Shown piece after piece: positions 1 to 17,268 of a stretch of 21,130 nt of DNA (positions are counted from its first letter, which is position 1; every line of letters starts with the position of its first letter). The stretch comes from a virus, in IMG/VR virus record IMGVR_UViG_3300044614_000375, positions 1 to 21,130 of that record; one strand, given 5' to 3'. Both the position numbers and the translations under genes were made by a program. The notes under the pieces are model-generated. The model was not told where the DNA came from. It was given only the letters and a program-made list of their open reading frames with translations, and did no database searches.

Positions 1-2870
1 ACCTTGATACATCAACAGGTGACGGAACAGCTCAATCAGCTGACTTTATCGCATACACAGGAGATTCAACAAACACAAATGGTTGGGCAGATCTTGGATT
101 CACAGGTAAAAACTTTGAAACAGCAGAATTTGGAATTACAGGTCCTGGAGACGGATATGTATTTGCTCAAGGATTTGAGCCATTAGTTGCAGTAATTACA
201 AATAAGCAATTAGCAAATAATGTTGCAACAATTACAACAAATGCAGCACACAACTTTGAAGTTGGCAGAAAAGTAAAAATTCAAAATGTTGGTGCTCCAT
301 TTAATGGCACACACATTATAACAAACGTATCCGCAACCGAGTTTAGCTTTGCTAAAACAGCAACTGATGTAGAATCATCTTCTACTGCTGGATCAGCAAC
401 TATGTATTACGGAGAAGGAAATCTTGTTCTTGCAACAGGTGATAGCGGATCAGCAAATAAGATTATTATAGCAGCTGGAGGATTTTCTTCAGGTAATGAA
501 CAAATGTCTATTACTCCAGATCAAAACGTACACATTGAAATTGCAACAGCCTCAACAAGCGCCACAACAGGTGCGTTAACAGTTGTCGGTGGTGTTGGTA
601 TCACTGGTGATCAATATATTGCTGGTGACTTAACAGTTATTGGTAACGTAGACTTACAAGGAGTTACAAAACTTCCAGTAGGTGCTGGCGCAACAGCGTA
701 TGAAACAGACGCAGAACTTACAGACGCAGTTATTATTGCGGCTGGAACATCTAGTTCATTCGTACAAAATGCATTAGTTAACCTAGGAACAGGAACATCT
801 TCATCAGCAGACTATATTGCATATGCTGCAGAAGGAAATAACGTATCTGGTTGGGTTGACATGGGTATCACTGGAGGAAACTTCAATGATCCATCATTTG
901 GCGTAACAGGGCCTCACGATGGATATATCTTTATGTCCGCTCCAGAAGGAACCACAGGTAAGGGTAATCTAGTTCTTGCAACAGATAACACTGGTACAGA
1001 TAATAAGATTATCTTTGCTGCTGGTGGTCTGTTTACTGGTAATGAGCAAATGACTATTACCCCAAATCAAAACATTCATATTGAAATTGCAACACCTTCC
1101 GTTTCCCCTACAACAGGAGCACTGACACTTGTCGGTGGTCTTGGAGTTCAAGGAGATATCAACGTAGCAGGTGCAGTTAATATCGCTGGTGAAATTACAT
1201 TCGGTGGTTCAGGAACAGTTGTTGAAACTGAAAACCTTGCAGTTGTTAACCCAATGGTATTCGTTGCAAGCGGAAACCCAACAGGAGACGGATTAACATT
1301 CGCCTTCCTTGGAGAATCTCGCTCACAACGTACATTAGTATTATCAAACGCAGTAAGCTTCCGTTCAGCATCAAATAACGTAGCTACAATAGTAACAACA
1401 GCAGCACATAATTACGAAGTAAATGACACAGTAGTAGTTACAGGTGTAGACGATCTAGCATCACTATCAGTAGTTATTGTTTATGAAGTTACAGGGTCTA
1501 CAAATGCTAAAATTACAACATCTGCCCCACACGGATTATTGGTCGGACAATCAATTACAGTATCTGGTGTAGCGGCAGCCGTAAATGGAACCTACACAAT
1601 CGCAACAGTTCCATCAACTACAACTCTTACATATACAGTTGGATCAACATCAAACGTAGCACCATCTCCAGTATCAGGATTGGTACAAAGAGTTGCTCTT
1701 CCAAACGTTTACAATGGAAGCTATACAGTTACTGAAGTTCCAACTAGCACACAATTTAGATACGCAAGAACAATTCCTGATGAGTCAGTAATTGCACCTA
1801 GCCGTACATATCCAAACGTAATAAGTTACTCATTAACAAACGGTGTAGTAACTTTAGTTCTTAATGATACACCTCAAATAGATGTGGGTGGCTCAGTCCT
1901 TATTGCAGGAGTAACATCAGCACTAAATGGAACAAGAACAGTTACAGCACGTAGCATGTCAACTCCTTTCTCAATATCATATGCAAGAGCATTAGATGAT
2001 ATTGTGTCAACAACTCTTACTACAACAGTAGCAGCAAATATTACTAGCAGAAACCGTACATCTGGTGTAGCAACGCTTACAACAAGTGCTAACCATTCAT
2101 TTGTACCAGGGCAATCAGTAGTAGTTGCTAACGTATCAAGTACATTTAATGGAACTTATACAATTACAGCAGTAACAGCAAATACAATTTCATACCTACA
2201 AGCACTGGCAGATATTGTTGAAACAGCCGAAACTGGTGGTACAACAACAGCAACTTATCCAAGCTATGGATCATACAAGCTTCTTAGCTACCTAGGTGCA
2301 TCATCTGTAACTAACCCACTACGTGGACAGTACACAGGTCTTGCTCGTAACCAAGCAAACCAGAAGTGGTACTTGGTCGGAGGAATTGCAAATAAGCCTT
2401 CAGATACAATTGACTTCTCAGCTCCAGGAACAACCTTTACTAGAGAAGATCTAAACGTAGATACACTCGAAGCAAGAGAGGTAGCTCTCGATAAAGATCC
2501 TTGGACTGGACTACAGGCAGCAACCTATAGATCAACTTCTGAAGTTCCTTCTATAATCAGCGCAAGTACGACACTAGTTGCAAAAACATGGACAAATCAA
2601 TCAGAAAACGTAGTTCGTGCAACAGGAAGATACTTTGTAATACCAGCAACTGGAATGGTATTAACTCTACCAGCATCCCCAGCTCTTGGTGATACTGTTC
2701 AGATTACAGATATCGCTGGAACAGCAGGATCTGTTGCAACAAAGCCTGTAATTGCTAGAAATGGCGAATTAATACAGGGTAAGGCAGAGAATATGACATT
2801 CGATGTTTCGAATGCATCAATAAAATTAGTTTATAGCAATACAACATATGGATGGAGGATAACACAGTAA
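1..2870 (+). CDS. Modular tail-fibre / tail appendage protein (5' end outside window)
   Basis: The reading frame is open from base 3, so the gene begins upstream; about 955 residues are visible, ending in TAA. It looks like a virion appendage built of repeated beta-rich modules. A unit with the signature SADFIAY/GITGPGDGY, GNLVLAT and QNVHIEIAT occurs twice (about 39-650 and 807-1190). Each copy ends in a TTGAL-VVGGVGI-GD segment typical of phage fibre shafts. At least five short modules of the form ITT-AHNFEVG-V-I-NV--FNGT-TIT-V (an FCCH-like fold common in phage structural proteins) lie near 200-390, 1385-1440, 1510-1660, 1840-1990 and 2065-2210. The C-terminus (IPATGMVLTLP, GDTVQITD, IKLVYSNTTYGWRI) matches the tip module frequent in T4-like and cyanophage fibres. 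There are no enzymatic motifs. Receptor binding or fibre-stalk function is inferred from family resemblance and from the chaperone two genes downstream. Confidence 0.85.
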   Translation, partial: LDTSTGDGTAQSADFIAYTGDSTNTNGWADLGFTGKNFETAEFGITGPGDGYVFAQGFEPLVAVITNKQLANNVATITTNAAHNFEVGRKVKIQNVGAPFNGTHIITNVSATEFSFAKTATDVESSSTAGSATMYYGEGNLVLATGDSGSANKIIIAAGGFSSGNEQMSITPDQNVHIEIATASTSATTGALTVVGGVGITGDQYIAGDLTVIGNVDLQGVTKLPVGAGATAYETDAELTDAVIIAAGTSSSFVQNALVNLGTGTSSSADYIAYAAEGNNVSGWVDMGITGGNFNDPSFGVTGPHDGYIFMSAPEGTTGKGNLVLATDNTGTDNKIIFAAGGLFTGNEQMTITPNQNIHIEIATPSVSPTTGALTLVGGLGVQGDINVAGAVNIAGEITFGGSGTVVETENLAVVNPMVFVASGNPTGDGLTFAFLGESRSQRTLVLSNAVSFRSASNNVATIVTTAAHNYEVNDTVVVTGVDDLASLSVVIVYEVTGSTNAKITTSAPHGLLVGQSITVSGVAAAVNGTYTIATVPSTTTLTYTVGSTSNVAPSPVSGLVQRVALPNVYNGSYTVTEVPTSTQFRYARTIPDESVIAPSRTYPNVISYSLTNGVVTLVLNDTPQIDVGGSVLIAGVTSALNGTRTVTARSMSTPFSISYARALDDIVSTTLTTTVAANITSRNRTSGVATLTTSANHSFVPGQSVVVANVSSTFNGTYTITAVTANTISYLQALADIVETAETGGTTTATYPSYGSYKLLSYLGASSVTNPLRGQYTGLARNQANQKWYLVGGIANKPSDTIDFSAPGTTFTREDLNVDTLEAREVALDKDPWTGLQAATYRSTSEVPSIISASTTLVAKTWTNQSENVVRATGRYFVIPATGMVLTLPASPALGDTVQITDIAGTAGSVATKPVIARNGELIQGKAENMTFDVSNASIKLVYSNTTYGWRITQ

Positions 2871-2871
2871 A

Positions 2872-3783
2872 ATGGCAAATTTAAGTAGAGAATTAAATAA
2901 CGCAATAGGTGCCAACGGGTTAGATCAGGGAGGATTGTGGAAAGAAGTAACCGATGGTTCCCGTTTTCCATTTAGCATTCCAACAATCTATACAATTCAT
3001 GGTCGCGTAGGTCCACAGAACTATACCTGGGGTAACTCAGACAATATCTGGACTTCATATCATAATTACATGGCTAACGGTAACGACCATCCTCGTGCCT
3101 TTTGGTGGTGCTTAAATGATATTCGTTTAGACAACAATGGTCACGCCGACGGATCCCTTGAAAACTGGGATCATCGAGCAATGCGTACTATTCAATACGC
3201 AGGCTCACGTTCAGTAGGATCTATTGATACTCAATATTTTACCCATCCACATGGAGGCTCGAATCTACCAATAGAGTATCGTCAATTGTATATAAGAAAT
3301 TATCATCCAACAACTGCATTTTCAGTAACAGTTTATGCTTCACATTCTAACTACTGGTCAAGTGGACACGAAGGAAGCTCAATGATTTTATGGCAACCAA
3401 ACGTAAATGGATCTTATGCTGCAGTTACTGGTGGTACATGGACCACTTTATCAAGTCAGACATCAGGAAACTCAATTGGATATACAAGAAGTGGAACATT
3501 TACTATTCAACCTCAAACAACTAATGTTGTTCAAATGAATAATACAATGCATCACTGGACATCATCATCCCAAGCAAATAAAAACTATGCAAGCAACACG
3601 TACTATAGATTAGAGGACACATTTGGTGCTAACTATAATGGCGCATACTGGATTCAGCCAGATCATAGAATGCTATTTACAGCTGCAACATACTCTCAAC
3701 CAGGAGAAAATACACATAATACAGCAACTGATCAAGTTTATAAAATTTGGAATAGAGCAGCATTGCTTTATGGAAATAGATAA
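2872..3783 (+). CDS. Trp/Tyr-rich phage structural protein, probably tail-fibre associated
   Basis: 303 residues, starting one base after the tail-fibre stop, with GGAGGA at 2854-2859 inside the end of that gene as a rather distant ribosome site. I do not recognise a named family. The protein has no signal peptide or membrane segment and is unusually aromatic: 12 Trp (including an FWW at about residue 77) and many Tyr, His, Asn and Ser, the composition of a beta-sandwich or carbohydrate-facing virion protein. It ends in a compact YKIWNRAALLYGNR tail. The position between the fibre and its chaperone argues for a fibre tip, a base-plate decoration or a receptor-binding subunit. A function as enzyme is not suggested by any motif I can see. 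Confidence 0.75.
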   Translation: MANLSRELNNAIGANGLDQGGLWKEVTDGSRFPFSIPTIYTIHGRVGPQNYTWGNSDNIWTSYHNYMANGNDHPRAFWWCLNDIRLDNNGHADGSLENWDHRAMRTIQYAGSRSVGSIDTQYFTHPHGGSNLPIEYRQLYIRNYHPTTAFSVTVYASHSNYWSSGHEGSSMILWQPNVNGSYAAVTGGTWTTLSSQTSGNSIGYTRSGTFTIQPQTTNVVQMNNTMHHWTSSSQANKNYASNTYYRLEDTFGANYNGAYWIQPDHRMLFTAATYSQPGENTHNTATDQVYKIWNRAALLYGNR

Positions 3784-3794
3784 TAGGAGAAAAC

Positions 3795-4208
3795 ATGACT
3801 AATTATTATGTAAAATTTGATGAAAACGGAACTCAGTCAGAAATAAGATTTGGGTTAGATCAAGAAAATCCTTCTGGATGGATTGATACTGGACTAGACA
3901 ATATTGACAATATGCAATTTAAACTAGTTAACGGTTCTGTGGTTCCTGCATCAGAAAATGAAATTTTAAATATGCGTAAAGAGCTATCTTATTTATCTGG
4001 ACTAAAAAAAGCAAGAGTTTTTAGAAATGTACTTTTATCTGATTGTGATTGGACACAAGGAGAAGATTCACCTTTATCTGAATCTGATAAAGCATTGTGG
4101 GCCACCTACAGACAACAATTAAGAGATCTTCCAAGTACAGTGAATACTGAAAATGGAGAATTTACTCTACCAACCCCACCAGATCCAAACTATAACCCAT
4201 TACAATAA
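3795..4208 (+). CDS. Phage tail (fibre) assembly chaperone
   Basis: 137 residues with a good ribosome site (AGGAGA at 3785-3790, four bases before ATG). The middle carries the hallmark of the Phage_tail_APC family: a basic R-x2-RN-x-LL segment followed by DCDWTQGEDSPLS, then KALWATYRQQLRDLP (roughly residues 72-116). The N-terminal half has a YVKFDENG-like strand and a GWIDTG motif, as seen in fibre-associated proteins of this type. Such proteins assist folding or assembly of tail fibres and are usually not in the mature particle. The location directly after the fibre and structural genes agrees with that role. The C-terminus is Pro-rich. It is probably co-transcribed with the upstream structural genes, because the next promoter lies after its stop. 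Confidence 0.85.
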   Translation: MTNYYVKFDENGTQSEIRFGLDQENPSGWIDTGLDNIDNMQFKLVNGSVVPASENEILNMRKELSYLSGLKKARVFRNVLLSDCDWTQGEDSPLSESDKALWATYRQQLRDLPSTVNTENGEFTLPTPPDPNYNPLQ

Positions 4209-4247: not shown

Positions 4248-4904
4248 ATGAATCACTATAATGTTGTAATTTGTAGCCCAGGGTATGAATTTGTTGCAGA
4301 ATATGTAGAATCTCTTTCTGAAACAATGTCTCAGTGTGCAGAAAAAAACATAACAGTAAAATGGTTAAATGGTCAATCATCTAGAGTACATCATGCAAGA
4401 GAATTAACGATATCTGGTGATAAGTTCGATATACATAGAGAATCACAAAAGCCATTTAATAATAAATTTACATACGACACAATAGTTTGGATAGACTCAG
4501 ATATATCTTGGACTAGCAAAGATTTTTTTAATTTAATAAATTCAAAATATGATATTACCACTGGCGCATATCTATTGACAGATAATACCGCCACAGTGTA
4601 TAATCAGAAGTATCTAAACGGAATTCCTAATTATTATATACTAGGAATGACAGAGCCAGAAAAAATTCAATCATGCGGATTTGGATTTATTGCTATGAAA
4701 AAAGGTGTTTTTGAAAGAATTCCTAGGCCATGGTTTAATTTAGAATTAGCTTCCATAGGCCAAAAGTATGGTATGGACATATACGATCTTCTCGGAGAAG
4801 ATATTTCCTGGTGCTATAAGGCACATAAGGCTAACATTGACATATGGTTTGACCCAAGTATTTTAGTTACCCATCATAAGAGAATTCCTCTTAGATTTAA
4901 ATAG
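4248..4904 (+). CDS. GT-A fold glycosyltransferase (phage type)
   Basis: 218 residues. The N-terminal strand VVICSPGYEF is the nucleotide-binding start of a GT-A domain. TIVWIDSDISW (about 79-88) supplies a D83-S-D85 metal/nucleotide-sugar motif at the end of a hydrophobic strand. SCGFGFIAMKKGVFERI (about 142-158) and GEDISWC (183-189) form the acceptor/catalytic region, with E184 or D185 as candidate base, and HH at 209-210 near the C-terminus is a plausible metal ligand. The protein lacks membrane segments and is short, like many phage GT-A enzymes that glycosylate virion proteins or modify DNA. The sugar and acceptor cannot be read from sequence. It opens an accessory block shared with a halogenase and a GT4 enzyme. 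No ribosome site is present; the mRNA is probably leaderless. Confidence 0.85.
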   Translation: MNHYNVVICSPGYEFVAEYVESLSETMSQCAEKNITVKWLNGQSSRVHHARELTISGDKFDIHRESQKPFNNKFTYDTIVWIDSDISWTSKDFFNLINSKYDITTGAYLLTDNTATVYNQKYLNGIPNYYILGMTEPEKIQSCGFGFIAMKKGVFERIPRPWFNLELASIGQKYGMDIYDLLGEDISWCYKAHKANIDIWFDPSILVTHHKRIPLRFK

Positions 4905-4915
4905 AAAGACTGAAT

Positions 4916-6529
4916 ATGATAAAAAATTTAAACAAGGTTGTAATTGTTGGAGGCGGATCTGCTGGATGGATGACAGCAGCTACACTTATAAAGTTTTATC
5001 CTGAAAAAGAAATTGTTGTAATTGAAAGTCCCAACATACCCGTAGTTGGTGTTGGAGAAAGTACAATTGGCGGACTTAAAACTTGGGTAAATGCATTAGA
5101 GATAGATGAAGATGATTTTATGAAATATACTGATGCTTCATACAAAATGAGTATTAAGTTTACCGATTTTTATGATAAAGATTCTGGATCATTTCATTAC
5201 CCGTTTGGATTGCCGTTTACTGGTCAGTTAGGTCCAAATAATACACAAATTTCACCACAAGAAATATTAAAGATGTGGCATTATAAAAAGGGAGTATTTC
5301 CAGAAACTCCAGTTCAAGATTACTGCAGGACATATTGGCCAACAATGCCATTAATTGAAAATAATAAATTTAGCAAAAATGAATCAGGAGAGTTCGACAA
5401 TTACTATCCAGAGACAAACGTAGTCTACCATTTTGATGCAACAAAATTTGGTGCTTGGCTAAGAGACAGATACGCAAAACCAAAGGGAGTTATTCATATA
5501 CAGGGAGAAGTTGTTACTGTTAACACAGATGAAAACGGGGTATCTAATTTAGTTTTAGATAATGGAGACATTATTTATTCTGATTTATATGTCGATTGTA
5601 CTGGATGGAAGAGCCTTCTGTTAGGTGATGCATTAAAAGAACCATTTAATTCATATGATCATATTCTTCCAAATAATAAAGCTTGGGCAGCACAGCTACA
5701 GTACAAAGATAAAGAAAAAGAATTAGAGCCATTTACTAATTGCACAGCTCTTGGAAATGGGTGGGCATGGAATATTCCTTTATGGTCTAGATTAGGAACT
5801 GGGTATGTGTATAGCGATAAATATATATCTCCAGAAGATGCAAAACAAGAGTTTAAAAATTATTTAATGTCAGACAAAATGGTATCTCCTAGAACACAAG
5901 AAGAAGTGGATACTCTAGAGTTTAAAGATATTAACATGAGAATAGGTTTAGCGGAAAGATTGTTTGTAAAAAATGTTGTCGCAATAGGTTTATCTGCTGG
6001 ATTTATTGAGCCTTTAGAAAGTAACGGATTGTTTACAATTCATCAGTTTTTATTAAAACTAGTAGATACAATAAATAGAGGACCAGTTTCTCAATGGGAT
6101 AAAGACGTGTACAACGTTTCTTGTAAGATACTATTCGATTCTTTTGCACATTTCGTATCTCTTCATTATGCATTAAGCCACAGAACAGATACACAATATT
6201 GGAAAGATATATCTACAAAAACATTTTCAAATATGCAAGACTTAGATTATCTTCAGACTTCTGGATTTTTTGAGCTTGCAAAATTAAAAATGGTAAATGG
6301 CGCTCATGAACTTACAAGCGGAATGAACTGTGTTGCTACTGGAATGAATTTCTTTTTATACAGCCAACAAGACCTTCTCCCTCATCCAATTTATAAGCAA
6401 AGTTATATAAAAGAATATGTTGAAAACTTTGTTAAAAGTACAGAGTATGTTCAGCTTAAATGGAAAAAGGCAGCAGAAGATGCTCCTACACTTTATCAAT
6501 ATTTGAAAGATAAATATGATAAAGCCTAA
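4916..6529 (+). CDS. Flavin-dependent halogenase, tryptophan-halogenase superfamily
   Basis: 537 residues, close to PrnA/RebH (about 530-540). FADH2-dependent halogenases make HOX, which a lysine delivers to an electron-rich aromatic ring. Seen here: the FAD motif VGGGSAGW (11-18); GVGEST (45-50); ASYKMSIKF with K77, equivalent to catalytic Lys79 of PrnA; the WxWxIP halogenase motif as WAWNIP (283-288); and the Fx.Px.Sx.G motif as FIEPLESNG (363-371), where E368 matches PrnA Glu346. Thr of the usual ES-T-G halide site is Asn370 here. The C-terminal region that holds free tryptophan in PrnA is not recognisably conserved, so tryptophan need not be the substrate. A flavin reductase is not in the window and may be host supplied. 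The ribosome site is weak (GAAAG) and the gene follows the glycosyltransferase by 11 bases, so it is probably co-transcribed. Confidence 0.93.
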   Translation: MIKNLNKVVIVGGGSAGWMTAATLIKFYPEKEIVVIESPNIPVVGVGESTIGGLKTWVNALEIDEDDFMKYTDASYKMSIKFTDFYDKDSGSFHYPFGLPFTGQLGPNNTQISPQEILKMWHYKKGVFPETPVQDYCRTYWPTMPLIENNKFSKNESGEFDNYYPETNVVYHFDATKFGAWLRDRYAKPKGVIHIQGEVVTVNTDENGVSNLVLDNGDIIYSDLYVDCTGWKSLLLGDALKEPFNSYDHILPNNKAWAAQLQYKDKEKELEPFTNCTALGNGWAWNIPLWSRLGTGYVYSDKYISPEDAKQEFKNYLMSDKMVSPRTQEEVDTLEFKDINMRIGLAERLFVKNVVAIGLSAGFIEPLESNGLFTIHQFLLKLVDTINRGPVSQWDKDVYNVSCKILFDSFAHFVSLHYALSHRTDTQYWKDISTKTFSNMQDLDYLQTSGFFELAKLKMVNGAHELTSGMNCVATGMNFFLYSQQDLLPHPIYKQSYIKEYVENFVKSTEYVQLKWKKAAEDAPTLYQYLKDKYDKA

Positions 6530-6800
6530 AGACATATGGGAAATAACAACCCAGTTATTTGAAAAAAAATACTGGAATAAAACTAATATAATTGAGTTTT
6601 GGGCATTTTCTACAAAGCTTATGATTATATTTCCAGGACTTTTATTCGGTAAACAATTTTGGTGGCTATTTATATTTGCTCTGGCTTCTAGCCTGGCTCT
6701 TATTTTTACTTCTACCATTAAAACATTACCAACAATTATTTACTTTAACATTGGGTGGAGCATCCTGGCTTCCATCGCAATAATCAAACACTTTATATAA
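6516..6800 (+). CDS. Small membrane protein, three predicted helices, function unknown
   Basis: 94 residues; its ATG lies 14 bases inside the end of the halogenase gene, so translation is probably coupled. A charged, Trp-containing N-terminal segment (1-25) is followed by three hydrophobic stretches at about 26-43, 46-66 and 71-90. There is no signal-peptide cleavage site and no recognisable family. Size and topology would allow a holin, but holins usually sit beside an endolysin and none is here. The overlap with the halogenase suggests instead a partner that places that enzyme, its product or a lipid-linked substrate at the membrane. This is inference only. Confidence 0.7.
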   Translation: MIKPKDIWEITTQLFEKKYWNKTNIIEFWAFSTKLMIIFPGLLFGKQFWWLFIFALASSLALIFTSTIKTLPTIIYFNIGWSILASIAIIKHFI

Positions 6801-7067: not shown

Positions 7068-8126
7068 ATGCGTTTTCATGTGGTAAGTCTTCCACATACT
7101 CAAACGACTAAAGAGTATGTCAATTGCGCCTTTACTGAAAAAGTAAGGCGCTTTTGTCTTATGATGAAAGATTTAGGGCATGAGGTTTACCTATATGCTG
7201 GTGAACAAAACGAGGCTCCATGTGATGAATTAATTACTTGTATATCCGATCAAGAAAGAATTGATGGCTTAGACGGTAAACATTTTACTTCCGCCTCATT
7301 TGATATTAAACAGCCTTACTGGGATAAATTCTTAAATAACGTAATACAAGAATTACGCCCACGACTTCAGCAAAAAGATTTTATATGTTTAATTGGCGGG
7401 ACATCTCATAAGCCAATAGCAGATGCCTATCCAGAACATATGTCAGTAGAGTTTGGAATAGGATACGGATCCAGCTTTGCTAAATATCGTGTTTGGGAAT
7501 CTTATTCATGGATGCATTCGTCTTATGCTGCGTATAAAGATCCAACAAAAGTTGACGGATTATTTTATGATACAGTAATCCCAGGATATTTTGAACCAGA
7601 AATGTTTCCATTCCAGCCAGATAAAAAAGATTACTATCTTTATATTGGCAGAATGATAGAACGTAAAGGAGTAGATATTGCATCTCAAATGTGTAAAGAA
7701 ATTGGCGCAAAATTAATAATGGCTGGCCCTGGAGACTATATTCCAAAATACGGTGAATATGTTGGACCTATTGATTCTGATAAAAGAGCAGAATTAATGG
7801 GTGGAGCAATTGCAGTTTTAGCACCGACAACATATATAGAGCCATTTGGAAACATTGTTCCAGAAGCACATTTTTGCGGAACCCCAACAATTACAACAGA
7901 CTGGGGAGCATTTGTAGAAACAAATCCAAACGGAATAACTGGATATAGATGCAGAACCTTAGATGAATTTTGCAAAGCGGCGGAAGACGTTAAGAAATTA
8001 AACCCTCAAATAATACATGATCGTGCTATGGCCACATACTCAGTAGATGTTATAAAATATAAGTATGAGAAGTATTTTAAAGGCCTTTTAACGCTATGGG
8101 ACCAAGGATGGTACACAAGATTATAA
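7068..8126 (+). CDS. GT4-like (GT-B fold) glycosyltransferase
   Basis: 352 residues. The C-terminal half carries a clear GT4 donor-binding domain: LYIGRMIERKGVDIA (about 191-205) is the usual hinge after the acceptor domain; MAGPGD (218-223) follows; EPFGNIVPE (258-266) is the E-x7-E nucleotide-sugar motif; CGTPTITTDWGAFVE (270-284) completes the site. The N-terminal half is less typical but has the glycine-rich IGGTSH segment (109-114). Retaining GT4 enzymes move a sugar from an NDP or GDP donor; donor and acceptor here are unknown. The ATG comes three bases after the previous stop and lacks an obvious Shine-Dalgarno, so coupling is likely. It closes the block that begins at the 4214 promoter. 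Confidence 0.88.
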   Translation: MRFHVVSLPHTQTTKEYVNCAFTEKVRRFCLMMKDLGHEVYLYAGEQNEAPCDELITCISDQERIDGLDGKHFTSASFDIKQPYWDKFLNNVIQELRPRLQQKDFICLIGGTSHKPIADAYPEHMSVEFGIGYGSSFAKYRVWESYSWMHSSYAAYKDPTKVDGLFYDTVIPGYFEPEMFPFQPDKKDYYLYIGRMIERKGVDIASQMCKEIGAKLIMAGPGDYIPKYGEYVGPIDSDKRAELMGGAIAVLAPTTYIEPFGNIVPEAHFCGTPTITTDWGAFVETNPNGITGYRCRTLDEFCKAAEDVKKLNPQIIHDRAMATYSVDVIKYKYEKYFKGLLTLWDQGWYTRL

Positions 8127-8150: not shown

Positions 8151-8987
8151 ATGGCAACCACAGGTAAAGGTTTTCGATACCCAGATTATGCAAACACTCC
8201 AGACGTCCCTAGAGACCTGGAGTACCTTGCTGAAGACGTAGATACGTACTTAGAGACACATCCTGGCCCTACGGGCCCCACAGGCCCTTCAGGGCCATCT
8301 GGTGCCACTGGCCCATCAGGTCCTCAAGGAGTAACTGGAGCAACAGGGCCTACAGGCCCAACAGGAGCAACAGGTCCATCTGGACCTCAAGGAACAGCAG
8401 TAACAATTTTAGGAACTTATAATTCATTAGGTGAATTACAAACAGCACATCCAACAGGAAATGCTGGAGACGGATATTTAATTGGCGGAACGTTATATGT
8501 TTGGTCAGTTAGTACAACATCTTGGGAAAATGTTGGAAATATTCAAGGCCCAACAGGACCAACTGGTTCAACAGGACCAACAGGCCCACAAGGATCTTCT
8601 GGAGCAGACTCAGTAGTTCCTGGACCAACGGGACCAACGGGCCCAGCAGGTGCTACAGGTCCATCAGGTCCTCAAGGTATTCAAGGTATTCAAGGACCGT
8701 CTGGACCAACAGGTCCAGTAGGATCAAGTGGACCAGCGGGAGAAAATTCTACAGTTCCTGGACCATCAGGTCCATCAGGTGCAACAGGTCCTTCAGGACC
8801 ATCTGGACCATCAGGTCCATCAGGTGCAACAGGTCCTTCAGGACCATCTGGACCAACAGGCCCAGCAGGAGTTTCCGTAGCATATTCTAATGGAACAGAT
8901 ACAGCTAATTTAAATAAAATATTTTATAATACAACTGGAACACCACCAAGCGGAACTGCTACTGGCGACCTTTATATTTACTACTAG
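8151..8987 (+). CDS. Collagen-like phage appendage protein
   Basis: 278 residues. A short N-terminal head (1-37) leads into uninterrupted Gly-X-Y triplets (about 38-80) dominated by GPT, GPS, GAT and GPQ. A globular insert (about 82-132; [31 protein letters not shown]) of a kind frequent in phage collagen-like proteins follows. Three further triplet stretches are separated by the spacers SVVP and STVP, ending in a short C-terminal domain. Such proteins form trimeric stalks or fibres on virions. Nearly every X/Y position is Pro, Ser, Thr or Ala, giving many possible O-glycosylation sites beside three glycosyltransferase genes. Pro stands mainly in X, not the Y position that vertebrate prolyl hydroxylases use, and no prolyl hydroxylase gene is visible. 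Confidence 0.9.
8769..8855 (+). repeat. Exact 42-base tandem duplication, period 45, in the collagen-like gene
   Basis: Bases 8769-8810 recur exactly at 8814-8855. The period of 45 bases equals five Gly-X-Y triplets ([15 protein letters not shown], then [15 protein letters not shown]). Exact identity at synonymous sites points to recent slippage or unequal recombination. Confidence 0.85.
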
Positions 8988-8995
8988 GAGCCTAA

Positions 8996-10243
8996 ATGAG
9001 TATAAGAGTATATGTTGGCTCACAGTGGAATAATCAAAAATCACTAAGCATTTATAGCGGTACAACCTGGAGCAAAGTAAAGCAAGGTTGGATTTTTAAT
9101 GGGTCTAACTGGTCTTTAAATTATCCAGAGTTTCCAGTAAGCACAACAGCTCCAACAATAAGTGGCACCGCAACTATTGGAAATACTTTAACATGCACAC
9201 AAGGTTCTTGGCAAGGCGAGGATGCATATACGCCAACAAGCTATTCATATCAATGGAAGCGTGGAGCAACAAATGTTGGAACAAATCAAAATACTTATAC
9301 TACAGTTTCTGCAGATGTAGGAAGTGCAATAACATGTGTTGTTACTGCAAATAATCAAAGAGGTGGCACTCCATCTACATCAAGTAATAGTATCACTGTA
9401 GCACCAGCAGCACCAACTGGATTATCTGTAACAAGCACAACATTGACACCAGGAGCGTTTACTGTAAATGGAACTGGTGGAGTAACAAGTTGGTCTGCTA
9501 CAAATACAACCTCAACAAATGCAACAATATACATTGGAGTTGCAACAAGCACTGGGACACAGCCTTCATCAGGAACAATCTATACTCCATTTTCATGGAC
9601 AAGTATTCCAACAACATTTCAAAGCCTTCAGTCGTGGGGTGCTGGTACTGTAACAATAACAGTATTTGCAGTTAATCAAAATAGAAAATTAAGAGTTAGT
9701 TGGACTGCAGCATCTGGAGCAACATCGTATGACGTGTCTTGGAGTGGCGGAACAAATGGAAGCGTTTCTGGAATTACTGCAACATCGTATGAAATAAATG
9801 CAGACAATACAAGCTCTGTAACATTTACAGTAACATCAAAATCTGGATCAACTTCTGGAGGATCAGCTTTCGCCGCTGGATCATCAACAGAACCTCAAAC
9901 AACAAGTAGCACAAATGTTACTTTAACTGGAACTACTACAACTACTACCACCACAACTACAACAACTACAACAACAGCGTGTATTTGTACATATAGTATA
10001 AGCGGAGTAAACTGGACTTCCCCACAATGTTGCCCGACTGGTTCAACAATATCTGCAGCTGGAACTGGCCCTGGAAGAACAGTAACGGCAAGTAGCTGTT
10101 GCCCTACTTATCCAATTAAATTTAATTGCAGCTCGTTCGACGTTACAAACTCTTCAAGCTCAAACTACAGTGTTTGTTTTAGCGTTGGACAATGTGCTGC
10201 TAATAATAACTCTTCTGGAACCAGAACAGCTTGTGTTGGTTAA
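8996..10243 (+). CDS. Ig-like/FN3-like appendage protein with poly-Thr stalk and Cys-rich tail
   Basis: 415 residues; AGGAG at 8986-8990 gives a good ribosome site. Residues 1-45 hold short beta repeats (VYVGSQWNNQKSLSIYSG, TTWSKVKQGWIFNGSNW) like the tip modules of actinophage fibre genes. Residues about 50-135 match the bacterial/phage Ig-like repeat (APTISGTATIGNTLTC, YSYQWKRGA, SADVGSAITCVVTANN). A degenerate FN3-like region runs to about 305. Then come 15 consecutive threonines (313-327) and a tail with 10 cysteines (329-415; CIC, QCC, SCC, NC, VC, QC, AC). A Thr stalk plus a disulfide-rich tip suggests an exposed, possibly O-glycosylated virion spike, but bacterial cytoplasm would not form disulfides before lysis. 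The role in host or mucin/glycan adhesion is inferred. Confidence 0.82.
   Translation: MSIRVYVGSQWNNQKSLSIYSGTTWSKVKQGWIFNGSNWSLNYPEFPVSTTAPTISGTATIGNTLTCTQGSWQGEDAYTPTSYSYQWKRGATNVGTNQNTYTTVSADVGSAITCVVTANNQRGGTPSTSSNSITVAPAAPTGLSVTSTTLTPGAFTVNGTGGVTSWSATNTTSTNATIYIGVATSTGTQPSSGTIYTPFSWTSIPTTFQSLQSWGAGTVTITVFAVNQNRKLRVSWTAASGATSYDVSWSGGTNGSVSGITATSYEINADNTSSVTFTVTSKSGSTSGGSAFAAGSSTEPQTTSSTNVTLTGTTTTTTTTTTTTTTTACICTYSISGVNWTSPQCCPTGSTISAAGTGPGRTVTASSCCPTYPIKFNCSSFDVTNSSSSNYSVCFSVGQCAANNNSSGTRTACVG
9932..9976 (+). repeat. Poly-threonine codon tract (15 ACN codons)
   Basis: Fifteen successive ACN codons (ACT, ACA and ACC mixed), giving a Thr15 linker in the Ig-like protein. The mixed third bases argue against simple trinucleotide slippage as the only origin and suggest selection for threonine. 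Confidence 0.9.
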
Positions 10244-10282: not shown

Positions 10283-10669
10283 ATGATAAATTTAAATGAA
10301 GAAGATTGGTTTATTTATCCAAATAAAGAGATAAATATGGCTAAAGGGAAATCTGCCGAACAGATAGCTCTTGTGGTAGATGGTGAAATAGCATCCTTTA
10401 TAGGAATTGATCCAAATTTATCTAATGTTTTTTTAAATGCGACAAGTTTTATAGAATGTGAAAGTTTAGAAAGCGGAGTATTTTGTATTACAGTTTCTGA
10501 TGGAACAAATACCGAAACAATTTTATGTAATGAAATGATTTATGCAATTCTTTTATCAAGTCCAACTATTGTAAAAGTAGATATTAGTATTCATACTTAT
10601 GCAGATAGAGCAGAACCTGGCTGGCTATATGTTGACGGACAGTTTATAGTGCCAGGAGAATATGATTGA
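10283..10669 (+). CDS. Hypothetical protein, possible virion or assembly component
   Basis: 128 residues, no family recognised. The predicted fold is mostly beta: alternating hydrophobic strands (QIALVVDGEIASFIG, GVFCITVSDG, ILCNEMIYAILLS, VKVDISIHTY) and a C-terminal GWLYVDGQFIVPG. The N-terminus is acidic and aromatic (NEEDWFIYPNKE). The repeated VVDGE--SFIGIDP pattern resembles small base-plate-like or fibre-tip phage proteins, but I cannot name one. It is transcribed from its own strong promoter and lacks a Shine-Dalgarno sequence, so it should be a leaderless message and the first gene of an operon running to the third glycosyltransferase. Its stop overlaps the start of the next gene. 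Confidence 0.7.
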   Translation: MINLNEEDWFIYPNKEINMAKGKSAEQIALVVDGEIASFIGIDPNLSNVFLNATSFIECESLESGVFCITVSDGTNTETILCNEMIYAILLSSPTIVKVDISIHTYADRAEPGWLYVDGQFIVPGEYD

Positions 10670-10896
10670 AATCTAAGTGGCAGCAGTATAAAGAAAAATT
10701 AGGCAATACTAGACCGTGGGATATTTTAAATCCAAACGCTGAATATGCATCAGAAGAGCTTGCTAATCATAGATACTCTTTATGTCAAGGATGCCCATTT
10801 TTTATAGATCTTACCAAACAATGTAAAGAGTGTGGTTGCTTTATGACAGTTAAAACTAAACTTTTAAATGCAGCGTGTCCGCAAAATAAGTGGTAA
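10666..10896 (+). CDS. Small Cys-cluster (zinc-ribbon-like) protein
   Basis: 76 residues from a TTG start. TTG is chosen because AGGAGA (10654-10659) lies six bases before it and it overlaps the previous TGA as TTGA; a nearby ATG at 10662 is in another frame and stops after four codons. The C-terminal half carries CQGCPFF, then CKECGCFM and AACPQNKW: a C-x2-C, C-x2-C-x-C and final C pattern that could bind zinc or an iron-sulfur centre. I recall similar short Cys-cluster proteins beside glycosyltransferase and fibre genes in cyanophages and other environmental phages, where their function is unknown. It precedes the GlcNAc-transferase-like gene by two bases, so a partnership is plausible but unproven. 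Confidence 0.72.
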   Translation: MKSKWQQYKEKLGNTRPWDILNPNAEYASEELANHRYSLCQGCPFFIDLTKQCKECGCFMTVKTKLLNAACPQNKW

Positions 10897-10898
10897 AA

Positions 10899-11807
10899 AT
10901 GTCTAGTATTTTTATTCAAATACCATCATACCATGATTTTGAACTAAGAAAAACAATATTAAATATTATAGAAAATAGTTCTGGCGAAAACATAATAAAT
11001 TTTGGAGTTCATATAACATATAACAAAAAAGATGAAATAGATGTGTCTGATATTCCAAATGTTAAATTTTCTAAAAGTAAAGCTCCCAAAAACCTAGGGG
11101 TTGGGATGGGAAGGTACTTGGCTAATAAATTTTATGATAAAGAAGATTTCTATTTTCAAATAGATTCTCATACTAGATTAGAAAAAAATTGGGACAAAAC
11201 ATTAATTGATTGTTACAATAAATATTTATCTATTGGCTATAATCCAGTACTGTCTGCATATCCAGCTGGATATAGGTATGTGGACTATAAAGTTGTAAAA
11301 GATATAGATCCAGTAATATCTGTAGCAGGATTTGAAAAAGATAAAAGTTTTTTAAAAAACTATATACCCCATCAAATAGCAGTTAAGAATAAAGAAAAAA
11401 ACATATTTACTAAATCTATATCTGCTGCATTTGTATTTTCTAAAGGAGAAATTGCAAAAATAGAGCCTAACAAAAATATATTTTTTTGGGGAGAAGAATC
11501 AATAATGGCTGTTAGATTGTATACACATGGATACGACTTAATGTTGCCAGATCAACAAGTAATGTACCACCTGTACTTTGACTGGGATAATCAAATCGGG
11601 TCTCAAAGAAGAGTGGTCTCAAATGATTTTCCAGAAGAATCTATAAAGCTTCAAAAGATTTCTGACAAAGAGATGTATCGAATTATAAATTTTCGTACCA
11701 TCGGGGACCAGTCCCTTGGATCCGTAAGGAGCCTTGCAGAATATGAAGAGTACGCTGGACTAGATTTTATAGGCAAAAAAATAGTAGGAACTGAATATAT
11801 AGTATAA
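10899..11807 (+). CDS. GlcNAc-transferase-like glycosyltransferase (Skp1/Gnt1-type GT-A family)
   Basis: 302 residues from the ATG; an in-frame GTG at 10890 would add three residues. Family-defining stretches are SIFIQIPSYHD at the N-terminus; VGMGRYLANKFYDKEDFYFQ followed by IDSHTRLEKNWD, with D89-S-H91 as the DxH/DxD-type metal motif; FFWGEESIMAVRLYTHGYDL (E199/E200 as candidate catalytic acids); MYHLY (H224); and the C-terminal LGSVRSLAEYEEYAGLDF. This matches the Pfam GlcNAc family, whose best-known member adds GlcNAc to hydroxyproline of Dictyostelium Skp1. A protein hydroxyl acceptor is therefore possible, but bacterial and viral members are uncharacterised to my knowledge. It sits two bases after the Cys-cluster gene and 2.7 kb from the Pro/Ser/Thr-rich collagen-like gene. 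Confidence 0.85.
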   Translation: MSSIFIQIPSYHDFELRKTILNIIENSSGENIINFGVHITYNKKDEIDVSDIPNVKFSKSKAPKNLGVGMGRYLANKFYDKEDFYFQIDSHTRLEKNWDKTLIDCYNKYLSIGYNPVLSAYPAGYRYVDYKVVKDIDPVISVAGFEKDKSFLKNYIPHQIAVKNKEKNIFTKSISAAFVFSKGEIAKIEPNKNIFFWGEESIMAVRLYTHGYDLMLPDQQVMYHLYFDWDNQIGSQRRVVSNDFPEESIKLQKISDKEMYRIINFRTIGDQSLGSVRSLAEYEEYAGLDFIGKKIVGTEYIV

Positions 11808-12049: not shown

Positions 12050-13888
12050 ATGTCATATAAACTAAGTGTTATTTCTAATTCACCACTAGCCTTCTGGCCA
12101 CTAGAATCCATTTCTAGTAGTGGAATATTAACATACCAGGATTTATTAGACGATTACAGCACCTATACAGAATTTTTAAATGGGTTTGAAACATATGCAG
12201 ATTCTAGCGGGTCTACTACACCAGATGTTTCTGGTTCAAATAATAATGGGGTATACATAGGACTTGTATACGAAGACAATATCCCACTTTTATCAGGATT
12301 TTCAGAATCAAGAAAAATTAAAGGGTCGTCATCCATATTCTATCCAACTCTAAATGATCACTCACAACCACAAGCATCTGTAGGTTTTGGAACATCAAAT
12401 GCTTCCGATAATGACTTTACTTTAGAATGCTGGGCCTATGTCGACACATCATCTACTTTAGATATACCGTTAATTGGAGACTCATCATCAGATGTGGGGT
12501 TATTCTATAGCAATGGAAATATTGTATTTAAATTAAACTCTCAAGAAATTACATGGACAATTCCGTATACAAATAAAGCATTGCATATAGTCGCAACATA
12601 CACTCCTACAAATGCATACCTATACATTGATGGAAAGATGGAAGTCCAAAAGGATCTAAGTAATTTTGCATTTAACAATAACAACCTAAACCTTTCTTCT
12701 GGTCCAGTAAATAATTCTAATGACTATATGCTAATTAATGCAGTTGCAATTTATAGATATTCATTAAGCTCTCAATCAATTAAAAATCATTACGATAGCG
12801 GCAAAACTATTGATTCAAATCAAGTAGTTTATCCAGATGGCGGAGAGTTGTTTAATTTATACGACAACGCTTTATCGACAAAATACTCATATTCTTATCC
12901 AGCTAATAGGCAGTGGGAAGACTTTTTAACAGACGATTTATATTACGACAACATAAATAATGCAATAAGAATTGCTTCAGGATCTGGTGTTGCAAAAACA
13001 GTTATCCTTAATGACTTTATAACTATTCCAAGCGGGGCAGAAATGGATGACTCTAGGATAGAATGGGACGGAAACAACGGTATTGAAGTTGAGACAAGTG
13101 TGGACGGAATAACCTATGAGTCTTGTATAAATGGTCAAGCAATACCACAATACTCCCTAGCCTCATTTGATACCTCTAGAGATCTACATATAAGAATTAC
13201 AATGACAACTTCAGACGATAGCCTATATCTTCCTAAACTATATAGCCTATCAATGAGCTTTTATAAAGATCAAGTATTCTATGCAAATAACTCAGCATCT
13301 TATATATCACCTCTTCAAGGAGATATGGGGCTAAGCAACAATAGATATGAGATATTATCACGAGATGCGAGAAATGGAATAGCCCTAGAAACAGGATCAG
13401 CCTTTTCAATAAATACTAATACTCTAACTAAATCATTAGAGTTCTTCTATACTCCATCTACAATAAATGACGGCGGGCTAGTAAAATCAATTTCTGGATC
13501 TGGTTATTCAGCATCCAATTTCTCTTGGTCATCTTCAGTAATATCCAAAACCAATATAGATAAGATATACGTCAATGGAATAGATAAAAGCACAGAGACA
13601 GATATCCACAATATATTTGCCAAGGACCAGCTTTATTATGTGGTAATCACATTTACTAATGCCATATCTGGGCAGATTGATATAAACTACTCTACCGCTG
13701 GCGCAATTTCGGCACTTTACCAGAATATAGCGATATATGATTATGCCTTAACTCTAGCTAAATCAGTAGAGCATTTTAATCTATACCTAGGCAACGCAAC
13801 CGTATCCCTATCTAATTCGTTAATGAGCATGACAGAAAACTCTTTTAACTACTATAATTACGACTGGACAGTAGTACAAAATATATAA
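12050..13888 (+). CDS. LamG/concanavalin-like lectin-domain virion protein
   Basis: 612 residues. The N-terminus SPLAFWPLES is the usual lead-in of phage LamG proteins. A first jelly-roll spans about 60-250: FTLECWAYVD, IGDSSSDVGLFY, ALHIVATYTPTNAYLYIDGK and the closing AVAIYRYSLSSQSIKNHYDS helix. A middle region (about 255-400) resembles a discoidin-like or baseplate beta domain (GIEVETSVDGITYESC). A second, weaker LamG domain occupies about 415-605 (KSLEFFYTPS, LYYVVITFTN, NIAIYDYALT). LamG domains bind glycans, so a receptor-binding or head/tail decoration role is likely. The start has no Shine-Dalgarno and follows the previous stop directly, so it is probably translationally coupled. An imperfect terminator-like hairpin begins at its stop codon. 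Confidence 0.83.
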   Translation: MSYKLSVISNSPLAFWPLESISSSGILTYQDLLDDYSTYTEFLNGFETYADSSGSTTPDVSGSNNNGVYIGLVYEDNIPLLSGFSESRKIKGSSSIFYPTLNDHSQPQASVGFGTSNASDNDFTLECWAYVDTSSTLDIPLIGDSSSDVGLFYSNGNIVFKLNSQEITWTIPYTNKALHIVATYTPTNAYLYIDGKMEVQKDLSNFAFNNNNLNLSSGPVNNSNDYMLINAVAIYRYSLSSQSIKNHYDSGKTIDSNQVVYPDGGELFNLYDNALSTKYSYSYPANRQWEDFLTDDLYYDNINNAIRIASGSGVAKTVILNDFITIPSGAEMDDSRIEWDGNNGIEVETSVDGITYESCINGQAIPQYSLASFDTSRDLHIRITMTTSDDSLYLPKLYSLSMSFYKDQVFYANNSASYISPLQGDMGLSNNRYEILSRDARNGIALETGSAFSINTNTLTKSLEFFYTPSTINDGGLVKSISGSGYSASNFSWSSSVISKTNIDKIYVNGIDKSTETDIHNIFAKDQLYYVVITFTNAISGQIDINYSTAGAISALYQNIAIYDYALTLAKSVEHFNLYLGNATVSLSNSLMSMTENSFNYYNYDWTVVQNI

Positions 13889-13950: not shown

Positions 13951-14298
13951 ATGGATATTAATAAGATCAATACTCAGGTATTAGACGAAGAAACTAGATT
14001 AGGCATATATGTTTGGGAAATGCCTGACGGAAAGTGGATAGGCGATGACGAAGGAAATTTCCTCTCAGTTACATCAACAAAAGGGAACAAATCAAGAGTT
14101 AATGCATTGGCTGATGAAGTTAGGTCATACGGTATTCTTGAGGGCAGGCCTCTATTTCTTTCTGGACGCAGGAAGATCGACGACGAAGAGCACCAATATC
14201 AACAACAAAGATTAAAGTGGGGACTAGTTCCAGATCCTATGGATGTTGGAAACTACAAAGATGAAATGAAAGCTTTGAAAAATGGAGGAGCAAAATAA
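13951..14298 (+). CDS. Conserved-looking small protein preceding the portal
   Basis: 115 residues, no named family recognised. It reads as a compact globular domain (about 10-60: DEETRLGIYVWEMPDGKWIG, FLSV, NALADEVRSYGI) followed by a charged helical tail (RRKIDDEEHQYQQQRLKWGL, PDPMDVGNYKDEMKAL). Its stop overlaps the portal start as TAATG, the tight coupling typical of head-assembly partners. The position where many phages have terminase or a portal-associated gene suggests a role in packaging or portal assembly, but it is far too small to be a large terminase and shows no ATPase or DNA-binding motif. It is the first gene of the head operon, probably on a leaderless transcript. Confidence 0.75.
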   Translation: MDINKINTQVLDEETRLGIYVWEMPDGKWIGDDEGNFLSVTSTKGNKSRVNALADEVRSYGILEGRPLFLSGRRKIDDEEHQYQQQRLKWGLVPDPMDVGNYKDEMKALKNGGAK

Positions 14299-15881
14299 TG
14301 GAATATGTAGATGACAACGATACATTTAGCAATGAGGTATCAATATCAAACTCATCCGACTTATTTAGCTTTAGCCAACCAGTAGTAATTGAAACTGATC
14401 CATTTAAAATAGAAGGCGAAGATTTAAAAAAGGTAATTGGACTTAGCCCAGCATTTCGTAGAAAAATGTCTAGAGACCTTCAGAAAAGTTTTACTGGAAT
14501 TGAAGGAACAGGAACACAGCAGAATCTATTGCAACAAGCAGTCACTGGATATGCAATGTTTGACCTTGTTCAACCAGTATATAACCTAGAGTATCTTTCA
14601 AAGATATATGAAATTTCTCCATACAACTATGCAGCAATTAATGCTAAGGTAGCAAATATTGTTGGACTAGGATACTCATTTGTAGAAAGCAAAAAAGCAA
14701 TGGAAGCACTAGACAACATTGAAGATTCTACACAATTAAATCGTGCTAGACGAAAGATGGATAGAATTAGACAGCAGCTAGAAATTTGGCTAGAAGACGT
14801 AAACGAAGAAGAGACATTTGTTGAAACCCTAGTAAAAGTTTATACAGACCTAGAAGCAACAGGAAATGGCTTTATTGAAATAGGTAGAACAACTAGCGGA
14901 AACATAGGATATATTGGACATATTCCAGCAAAGACTATGCGTGTTCGTAGACTCCGTGACGGATTTATACAGCTACTTTATGGCAAGGCAGTATTCTTTA
15001 GAAATTTTGGAGACACAGAAACAGAGAATCCGATTGCTGGTCAAGAAGATAGACCAAATGAAATTATTCATTTAAAGAAATATACGCCAATGAATAATTA
15101 CTACGGTATTCCAGATATTGTTGCATCACAAAATGCAATGGCTGGTAACGAATTTGCTGGTAAATATAACCTAGACTACTTTGAAAACAAGGCGGTACCA
15201 CGTTATATTATTACAGTAAAAGGAGCAAAGCTTTCAACAGAGTCAGAAAGAAAGCTTCTTGAATTTTTCCAGGTAGGTCTTAAAGGGAAGAATCATAGAT
15301 CCCTTTATGTTCCACTTCCAGCAGATTCATCTGACTCAAAGGTAGAATTTAAGATGGAGCCAGTAGAGGCTAATATTCAGGATTCATCGTTTAACAATTA
15401 TAGAAAAGCCAACCGTGATGAAATTCTTTTGTCTCATCGTGTTCCAATTAATAAAATTGGAGTCCCAGAGGGAGTCAGCCTTGCCTCAGCAAGAGATGCC
15501 GATAAAATGTTTAAAGAGCAGGTCTGTCGTCCAGCACAGGATATTCTAGAAAAGAAATTAAATAGAATTATTGCAGAAAAGACAGATGTTCTTATTTTAA
15601 AATTTAATGAATTAACCCTTACTGATGAAGATACTCAGTCTAAAATTGATGAGAGATATTTACGTATGCAGGTTATTACCCCAAATGAGGTAAGAATTAG
15701 AAAGGGTATGATTCCAATTGAGAGTGGAGATGAAGTAATTCAGTTAAAACCTCAACAGGCAGCGGAACAAACAGCCCAAGCAATGAATAGTAGAGCCAGA
15801 ACCCAAGAAAGAGATTCTAACTCACCTGATATTTCAGGGGAGGCCAGAAACCCAAAAGGTGAGGGTAGGGTCACAGCTTAA
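14298..15881 (+). CDS. Portal protein (HK97/PBSX-like Phage_portal family)
   Basis: 527 residues. The portal forms the dodecameric ring at the capsid vertex through which DNA is packaged. Family features: SPYNYAAINAKVANIVGLGY (about 114-133) in the wing; ATGNGFIEI-R (about 190-201); IPAKTMRVRR; IIHLKKYTPMNNYYGIPDIV (about 255-274); KAVPRYIITVKGAKLS; the stem-like DEILLSHRVP--KIGVPEGV (about 376-397); and a DKMFKEQVCRPAQDILEKKL helix. The C-terminus (after about 480) is Gln-, Ser- and Gly-rich and probably disordered. The ATG overlaps the previous stop and has GGAGGA at 14283-14288 as ribosome site. An intrinsic terminator follows the stop by five bases, which would set the portal level apart from that of the capsid genes. 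Confidence 0.93.
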   Translation: MEYVDDNDTFSNEVSISNSSDLFSFSQPVVIETDPFKIEGEDLKKVIGLSPAFRRKMSRDLQKSFTGIEGTGTQQNLLQQAVTGYAMFDLVQPVYNLEYLSKIYEISPYNYAAINAKVANIVGLGYSFVESKKAMEALDNIEDSTQLNRARRKMDRIRQQLEIWLEDVNEEETFVETLVKVYTDLEATGNGFIEIGRTTSGNIGYIGHIPAKTMRVRRLRDGFIQLLYGKAVFFRNFGDTETENPIAGQEDRPNEIIHLKKYTPMNNYYGIPDIVASQNAMAGNEFAGKYNLDYFENKAVPRYIITVKGAKLSTESERKLLEFFQVGLKGKNHRSLYVPLPADSSDSKVEFKMEPVEANIQDSSFNNYRKANRDEILLSHRVPINKIGVPEGVSLASARDADKMFKEQVCRPAQDILEKKLNRIIAEKTDVLILKFNELTLTDEDTQSKIDERYLRMQVITPNEVRIRKGMIPIESGDEVIQLKPQQAAEQTAQAMNSRARTQERDSNSPDISGEARNPKGEGRVTA

Positions 15882-17247: not shown

Positions 17248-17268
17248 AAAGGGTAGGTGAAACAAACA

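Follow-up and report, generated by a model that had tools for sequence, protein, structure and literature searches.

The window analysed here, an IMG/VR fragment of 21,130 bases, holds an intact open reading frame with an ATG start at positions 4916-6529, which encodes a predicted flavin-dependent halogenase (FDH) of 537 amino acids in the midst of fibre, glycosyltransferase and head genes. The features recognised are as follows.

402-2870, plus strand: long fibre or structural protein (cluster c98), its frame open to the 5' end of the window; weak matches to phrog_9998 and phrog_4302, homologue in locus L028.
2872-3783, plus strand: Trp/Tyr-rich protein of 303 aa, candidate substrate; no Pfam or PHROG match.
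3795-4208, plus strand: tail assembly chaperone (Phage_tail_APC, PF16778, E 8.5e-14).
4248-4904, plus strand: glycosyltransferase-like protein (phrog_1574, E 3e-44; also weakly matching a phrog labelled glycosyltransferase).
4916-6529, plus strand: FDH of the VirX1 type, 537 aa, called from motifs, PF04820, phrog_2928, the match to 6QGM, the model and the tree.
4949-4966, plus strand: GGGSAG (residues 12-17), FAD dinucleotide-binding motif; Gly 12, 14 and 17 invariant in 105 of 105.
5144-5146, plus strand: codon of the catalytic Lys77 (PrnA Lys79).
5762-5779, plus strand: WAWNIP (residues 283-288), the WxWxIP halogenase motif; W283 in 105, W285 in 104 and P288 in 105 of 105.
6017-6019, plus strand: codon of the active-site Glu368 (equivalent of PrnA Glu346).
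6516-6800, plus strand: hydrophobic, membrane-like protein of 94 aa (TM94), its start overlapping the FDH stop by 14 bases.
7068-8126, plus strand: glycosyltransferase group 1 (PF00534, phrog_3408).
8151-8987, plus strand: collagen-like fibre protein (PF01391, E 3.6e-21).
8996-10243, plus strand: virion structural protein-like (phrog_12736, E 7.8e-10); homologue beside collagen-like genes in sister L213.
10666-10896, plus strand: small Cys-rich protein DUF6171 (PF19668, 3.8e-6).
10890-11807, plus strand: GlcNAc-type glycosyltransferase (PF11397, E 2.3e-35).
12050-13888, plus strand: LamG-domain protein (PF13385), opening a conserved block downstream of a variable interval.
14298-15881, plus strand: portal protein (PF04860; Streptomyces phage match).
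15901-17247, plus strand: head maturation protease (phrog_9427, E 7.6e-128).
17257-18321, plus strand: major capsid protein (PF05065, phrog_1623; Streptomyces phage match).

By its motifs, its profile match and its predicted fold, the gene at 4916-6529 is a complete FDH of the VirX1 type. The protein matches Pfam PF04820 (Trp_halogenase) with E 4e-100 and 336 bits (cut-off 21) over model positions 1-407 of 458, and phrog_2928, 'tryptophan halogenase', with E 1.5e-135; its top sequence match in the PDB is VirX1 (6QGM, E 8e-100). GGGSAGWMTAA lies at residues 12-22 and GWAWNIP at 282-288, together with K77 and the run F363-I-E365-P366-L-E368-S369-N-G371. The AlphaFold2 model, built from 51 sequences (the window and IMG/VR loci), reached pLDDT 90.7 and pTM 0.90, and the top six Foldseek matches to it were VirX1 chains (TMq 0.86-0.87, 34-35% identity), followed by AbeH, PyrH, SttH, Thal and PrnA at TMq 0.76-0.82. 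Comparison with the nearest relative, in L028 (73% identity), by the Nei-Gojobori method gave dN 0.19 and dS 1.57, which indicates a gene constrained by purifying selection and not decayed, the ratio being rough since dS is close to saturation. A scan for promoters and terminators showed no excess over shuffles.

A sequence-only reading of this DNA had already called a complete halogenase and placed the FAD motif, K77, WAWNIP, F363 to G371 and E368; its residue numbers were all right, and the call is borne out by the motifs, PF04820, the VirX1 match, the model and the selection, while the structure prediction that it had proposed returned an FDH fold with VirX1 chains first. It had named the loss of the Lys or Glu among homologues as grounds for rejection. 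Among the aligned phage FDHs the catalytic Lys is kept in 105 of 105 and the active-site Glu in 103 of 105, in its favour. The two others, L071 and L075, bear Gln at this position, and altered chemistry is possible there.

Enzymes of this family receive FADH2 from a separate reductase and form a flavin hydroperoxide and then HOX, which is relayed by the Lys to an aromatic ring attacked with the assistance of the Glu. As for the substrate, the sandwich His of the [FY]xHPF motif is replaced by Tyr in 102 of the 105 phage FDHs (FHYPF with Tyr95 in the window); HPF is present in the aligned solved Trp halogenases and in most of the sampled cellular FDHs. Furthermore, the C-terminal substrate region of the window FDH gives no sequence alignment with PrnA-type enzymes. 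Taken together, the exchange of His for Tyr and the unalignable C-terminal region disfavour free tryptophan as the substrate, and the earlier remark that recognisable free-tryptophan-binding residues are lacking, which makes a PrnA/RebH type unlikely, stands. A C-terminal segment of the YYxxFExxFxxFW type, which we take to be the amino-acid-binding segment of free-tryptophan halogenases, is absent from the phage FDHs and equally from all 31 sampled cellular FDHs, and is thus useless as a discriminator.

Two genes upstream of the glycosyltransferase-FDH pair lies the 303-aa protein, in which 12 Trp and 21 Tyr make up 10.9% of the residues (rank 8 of 1269 neighbour proteins). Its homologue in L028 is 70% identical with most Trp conserved, and genes for it turned up in four viral contigs only, identical in three of them. 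We regard it as a candidate FDH substrate for the window's phage only; as a general FDH substrate it was ruled out, being found only in this phage and L028. The flavin reductase family PF01613 was found in none of 26 FDH-carrying phage records, as against 13 of 14 control genomes, which suggests that the host would supply FADH2.

The view of the sequence-only reading that phage halogenases are rare is contradicted by the collections. FDH relatives occur in 67 of 50,697 phage records, mostly T4-like cyanophages, and a profile-based scan of IMG/VR confirmed at least 595 stretches with such relatives; a published survey counted FDHs in 20 of 153 cyanophage genomes (PMC10452541). A quick tree of 80 proteins, with SH-aLRT support and no bootstrap, places the VirX1-like phage FDHs, including that of the window, in a clade of 46 rows (SH-aLRT 99) apart from the cellular FDHs. 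Its sole cellular member, L112, is 56% identical to the window FDH over the best segment, and a transfer between phage and bacterium is possible in this case. The L112 gene (L112:5980-7581) is chromosomal, in a deltaproteobacterial MAG with ordinary chromosomal neighbours and no phage genes apparent in 13 kb. A bacterial source for the window FDH was considered and set aside, the cellular FDHs found being at most 36% identical except for this MAG gene. The cyanophage 'T4-GC212' PrnA type falls mostly outside the VirX1-like clade; S-MbCM6 (L107) joins its base on a long and uncertain branch. Additionally, the halogenase frame of S-PM2 (AJ630128.1, 121319-122608) contains an in-frame TAA, so that the gene may be broken, and an unannotated human faecal phage contig (L026, MT835646.1) carries an FDH 30% identical to that of the window.

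The portal of the window phage is about 60% identical to those of Streptomyces phages Muntaha and BillNye and its major capsid protein is 57% identical to that of Streptomyces phages, which sets it apart from the T4-like cyanophages. Judged from these proteins, the phage is akin to the Streptomyces phages of Stanwilliamsviridae, and an actinobacterial host is likely. The lineage is abundant, with at least 599 capsid-matching stretches in IMG/VR. FDHs identical to that of the window were found in three longer contigs, and among 30 sister contigs, some of which do not span the region, an FDH occurs in the window's own phage only. No Streptomyces-named phage is among the 67 FDH-bearing phage records, and the enzyme adds to the VirX1 clade a member from a phage lineage for which the annotated collections searched record no FDH. 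Related phages with an FDH are L046, L043, L053 and L084, whose portals are 48-75% identical.

The placement of the gene within a virion-gene region with glycosyltransferases, and outside any biosynthetic cluster, had been described from the sequence before; the finding of PF16778, PF00534, PF11397, PF04860, PF05065, PF01391 and PF13385 confirms it. The order c98-c99-chaperone-FDH is common to the window and L028, and the chaperone family PF16778 lies near an FDH in 10 loci, directly upstream in 5. The phrog_1574 protein has homologues in 101 cyanophage or marine records and is absent from L028. A TM94 homologue is the next gene downstream of the FDH in 5 loci and lies upstream of it in L065 and L084; as an obligate FDH partner TM94 was ruled out, an FDH lying within 3 kb in just 23 of 61 homologous loci. 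The core of TM94 is strongly conserved (IIFPGLLFG..WW...STxKTLPTII), with relatives in at least 566 IMG/VR stretches, and DUF6171 homologues are found near an FDH or TM94 in L051, L287 and L293.

The ORFs within 10 kb of an FDH were clustered over 98 loci; the genes that recurrently keep company with the FDHs are those for 2OG-Fe(II) oxygenases and tail fibres. The oxygenases (PF13640) make up the biggest non-FDH neighbour clusters; among the 74 FDH loci of at least 10 kb, 2OG genes occur in 62, recognised structural clusters in 58 and more than one FDH-family gene in 32. No 2OG gene lies in the window. A fibre-glycosyltransferase-halogenase order, whose conservation the sequence-only reading had wished to see checked, is not conserved, given that the window glycosyltransferases recur near no other FDH and that L028 has none from chaperone to FDH. 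As a control for 2OG-rich genomes, 2OG positions were mapped over whole records and compared with random placement in 20,000 trials. For VirX1-like FDHs, 59 of the 88 2OG genes among the matches listed lay within 10 kb, as against 12.1 at random and a maximum of 44 in the 20,000 trials, in a sample whose records are not independent and include the near-duplicates G002 and G003; for the distant-type FDHs the figure was 11 of 60 among the matches listed, against 6.0 expected (P 0.06). S-RIM44 and Sf-CH11 have both FDH types, and their nearby 2OG genes stand mainly beside the VirX1-like one.

The fibre genes recur in a similar manner. In Syn10, two tail-fibre genes of phrog_863 directly precede the VirX1 gene (CPUG_00131) and a second FDH; S-RIM44, P-TIM40 and P-RSM6 likewise have this fibre family just upstream of the FDH. 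The order in S-CREM1 is a collagen-like gene, the FDH and a run of 2OG genes, and in S-WAM1 a tail fibre, the FDH and 2OG; S-B64, with its FDH among replication genes, is an exception. Several of the loci without 2OG genes have their FDH close to or immediately downstream of Gly-rich fibre genes (L043, L044, L046, L081) or a tail chaperone. The repeated linkage to fibre genes and modifying enzymes that a tail-fibre decoration cassette would show is observed. Of the tandem FDHs of Syn10 (L019, 8491-11596), VirX1 is entered in GenBank as 'hypothetical protein' and the other as 'tryptophan halogenase'. Some FDH cassettes also contain carbamoyltransferases, nucleotide-sugar-like genes or NUDIX genes. 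A further cluster, c4 (phrog_7084/DUF6065, e.g., L046:12536-13246), of about 240 aa, travels with FDH and 2OG genes; its AlphaFold model (pLDDT 86) hints, by a Foldseek match of E 3e-5, at a dUTPase-like fold.

Within the window's lineage, the LamG gene is conserved in all 12 sister loci mapped, and what precedes it varies. Four of them (L208, L209, L248, L264) have at least five 2OG-Fe(II) oxygenase genes just upstream of the LamG-portal block, accompanied in three by DUF6065 genes, and most other mapped sisters have fibre, Gly-rich or collagen-like genes there. The same stretch of the window holds the GlcNAc-transferase, DUF6171, the collagen-like protein and a glycosyltransferase, and the FDH is situated some 5 kb farther upstream, next to the genes for the fibre and the chaperone. 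This alternation of 2OG clusters, glycosyltransferases and FDHs before the LamG-portal block shows that modifying enzymes with different chemistries come and go on the fibre side of one head-gene block.

The explanation that we put first, with somewhat less than even confidence, is that the window carries a swappable fibre-decoration cassette whose FDH would draw on a host flavin reductase and attach halogen to aromatic residues in a fibre or adhesin. The FDH would be made late in infection and would bind FADH2 from the host flavin reductase, whereupon O2 would give the flavin hydroperoxide; halide would be oxidised to HOX and relayed via Lys77, and an electron-rich aromatic ring would be halogenated with the help of Glu368. 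Its likeliest target, to judge from linkage, would be Trp or Tyr of a neighbouring fibre or adhesin protein, or some aromatic moiety that it carries, and the consequence may be an altered adhesin surface chemistry that affects how the adhesin binds its receptor, how stable it is or how it is masked. The neighbourhood evidence fits the peptide or glycan-linked substrate proposed before from the sequence. The placement of the FDH supports a fibre-decoration role without proving it, and its position near fibres may also stem from an insertion hot spot and not from function. More tentatively, we suggest as a broader and rather doubtful generalisation that halogenation is a post-translational modification of receptor-binding fibres, in which VirX1-type FDHs, often several per genome, trade places with glycosyltransferases and batteries of 2OG-Fe(II) hydroxylases in the variable interval next to the fibre genes and vary the chemistry of adhesins in two or more unrelated lineages of tailed phages.

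The main rival, which we consider unlikely though to be taken seriously, is that the FDH, the 2OG oxygenases, the carbamoyltransferases and the glycosyltransferases together produce a small halogenated compound or modify a polysaccharide. Such an outcome was proposed for the jumbo cyanophage S-SSM6a by Iyer et al. (PMC7824862), and the carbamoyltransferase, NUDIX and nucleotide-sugar-like genes of some cassettes, as well as the three glycosyltransferases flanking the window FDH, would suit it. Moreover, VirX1, a trimer with a preference for iodide and a broad substrate range (properties known for VirX1 only), accepts many small aromatics (PMC8407142), so that a small-molecule substrate is possible. 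Nevertheless, the S-SSM7-type FDHs (T4-GC212, to which that of S-SSM6a belongs) stand outside the VirX1-like clade and have no significant link to 2OG genes, no scaffold-making gene (NRPS, PKS, amino-acid ligase) is among the identified ORFs of the window, and fibre and 2OG genes are the most constant neighbours.

Phage FDHs have otherwise been viewed as auxiliary metabolic or antibiotic genes (PMC2984593, PMC9964418). For the window FDH, an auxiliary metabolic role, in which free tryptophan or another host metabolite is halogenated for antibiotic protection or a changed host metabolism, appears distinctly improbable: the family is annotated as tryptophan halogenase and some distant-type phage FDHs do sit among hli, talC and psbA genes, but the sandwich His is Tyr in nearly all phage FDHs, the VirX1-like ones lie 44-80 kb from psbA/psbD, no closer than at random, and no pyrrolnitrin-type partner genes were found in the window. 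That the enzyme is a degenerate relative, or an FAD monooxygenase lacking halide chemistry, is very improbable indeed. The Gln of L071 and L075 indicates that the active site can drift in this family; however, the WxWxIP motif and Lys77, which mark halogenases, are conserved, the window FDH is under purifying selection, and VirX1, the relative that has been characterised, does halogenate (PMC8407142).

Published guesses on the role of phage halogenases comprise antibiotic protection, metabolite production and capsule decoration, to which the linkage adds a testable alternative, the neighbouring fibre; among open-licence full texts we found none joining tryptophan halogenase, tail fiber and 2OG, and a mention elsewhere is possible. 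If fibre modification is true, halogenation joins the chemistry used on phage attachment proteins, which would help to account for the open, permissive active site of VirX1 and would show where to seek new protein-halogenating catalysts.

Among known systems, VirX1 (6QGM, cyanophage Syn10 CPUG_00131) shares with the window FDH its clade, fold, catalytic residues, YPF motif and tail-fibre region. The two are only 34-35% identical, and Syn10 is a T4-like cyanophage that has 2OG genes and a second FDH in tandem, whereas the Stanwilliamsviridae-like window phage has glycosyltransferases, a collagen-like protein and TM94 instead. PrnA, RebH, Thal and PyrH have the PF04820 fold (TMq 0.76-0.82), GxGxxG, WxWxIP, Lys and Glu in common with the window enzyme, which departs from them in Tyr95 for the sandwich His, in its unalignable C-terminal region and in lacking a biosynthetic cluster. 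The T4-GC212 'PrnA' of P-SSM2, S-PM2, Syn1 and S-SSM7 is likewise a phage-encoded PF04820 protein, but it has about 480 aa and 25-30% identity, falls outside the VirX1-like clade, often lies in metabolic-gene regions and shows no significant 2OG link. The S-SSM6a cluster also combines a halogenase with 2OG oxygenases and carbamoyltransferases; its FDH is of the distant type, and the cluster has been proposed to yield a secondary metabolite or to decorate the capsule rather than to modify fibres (PMC7824862). Finally, the glycosylation of mycobacteriophage virion proteins resembles our proposal in that a phage enzyme is thought to modify the phage's own virion proteins in an actinobacteriophage setting, and differs from it in that glycosyl groups are transferred in place of halogenation.
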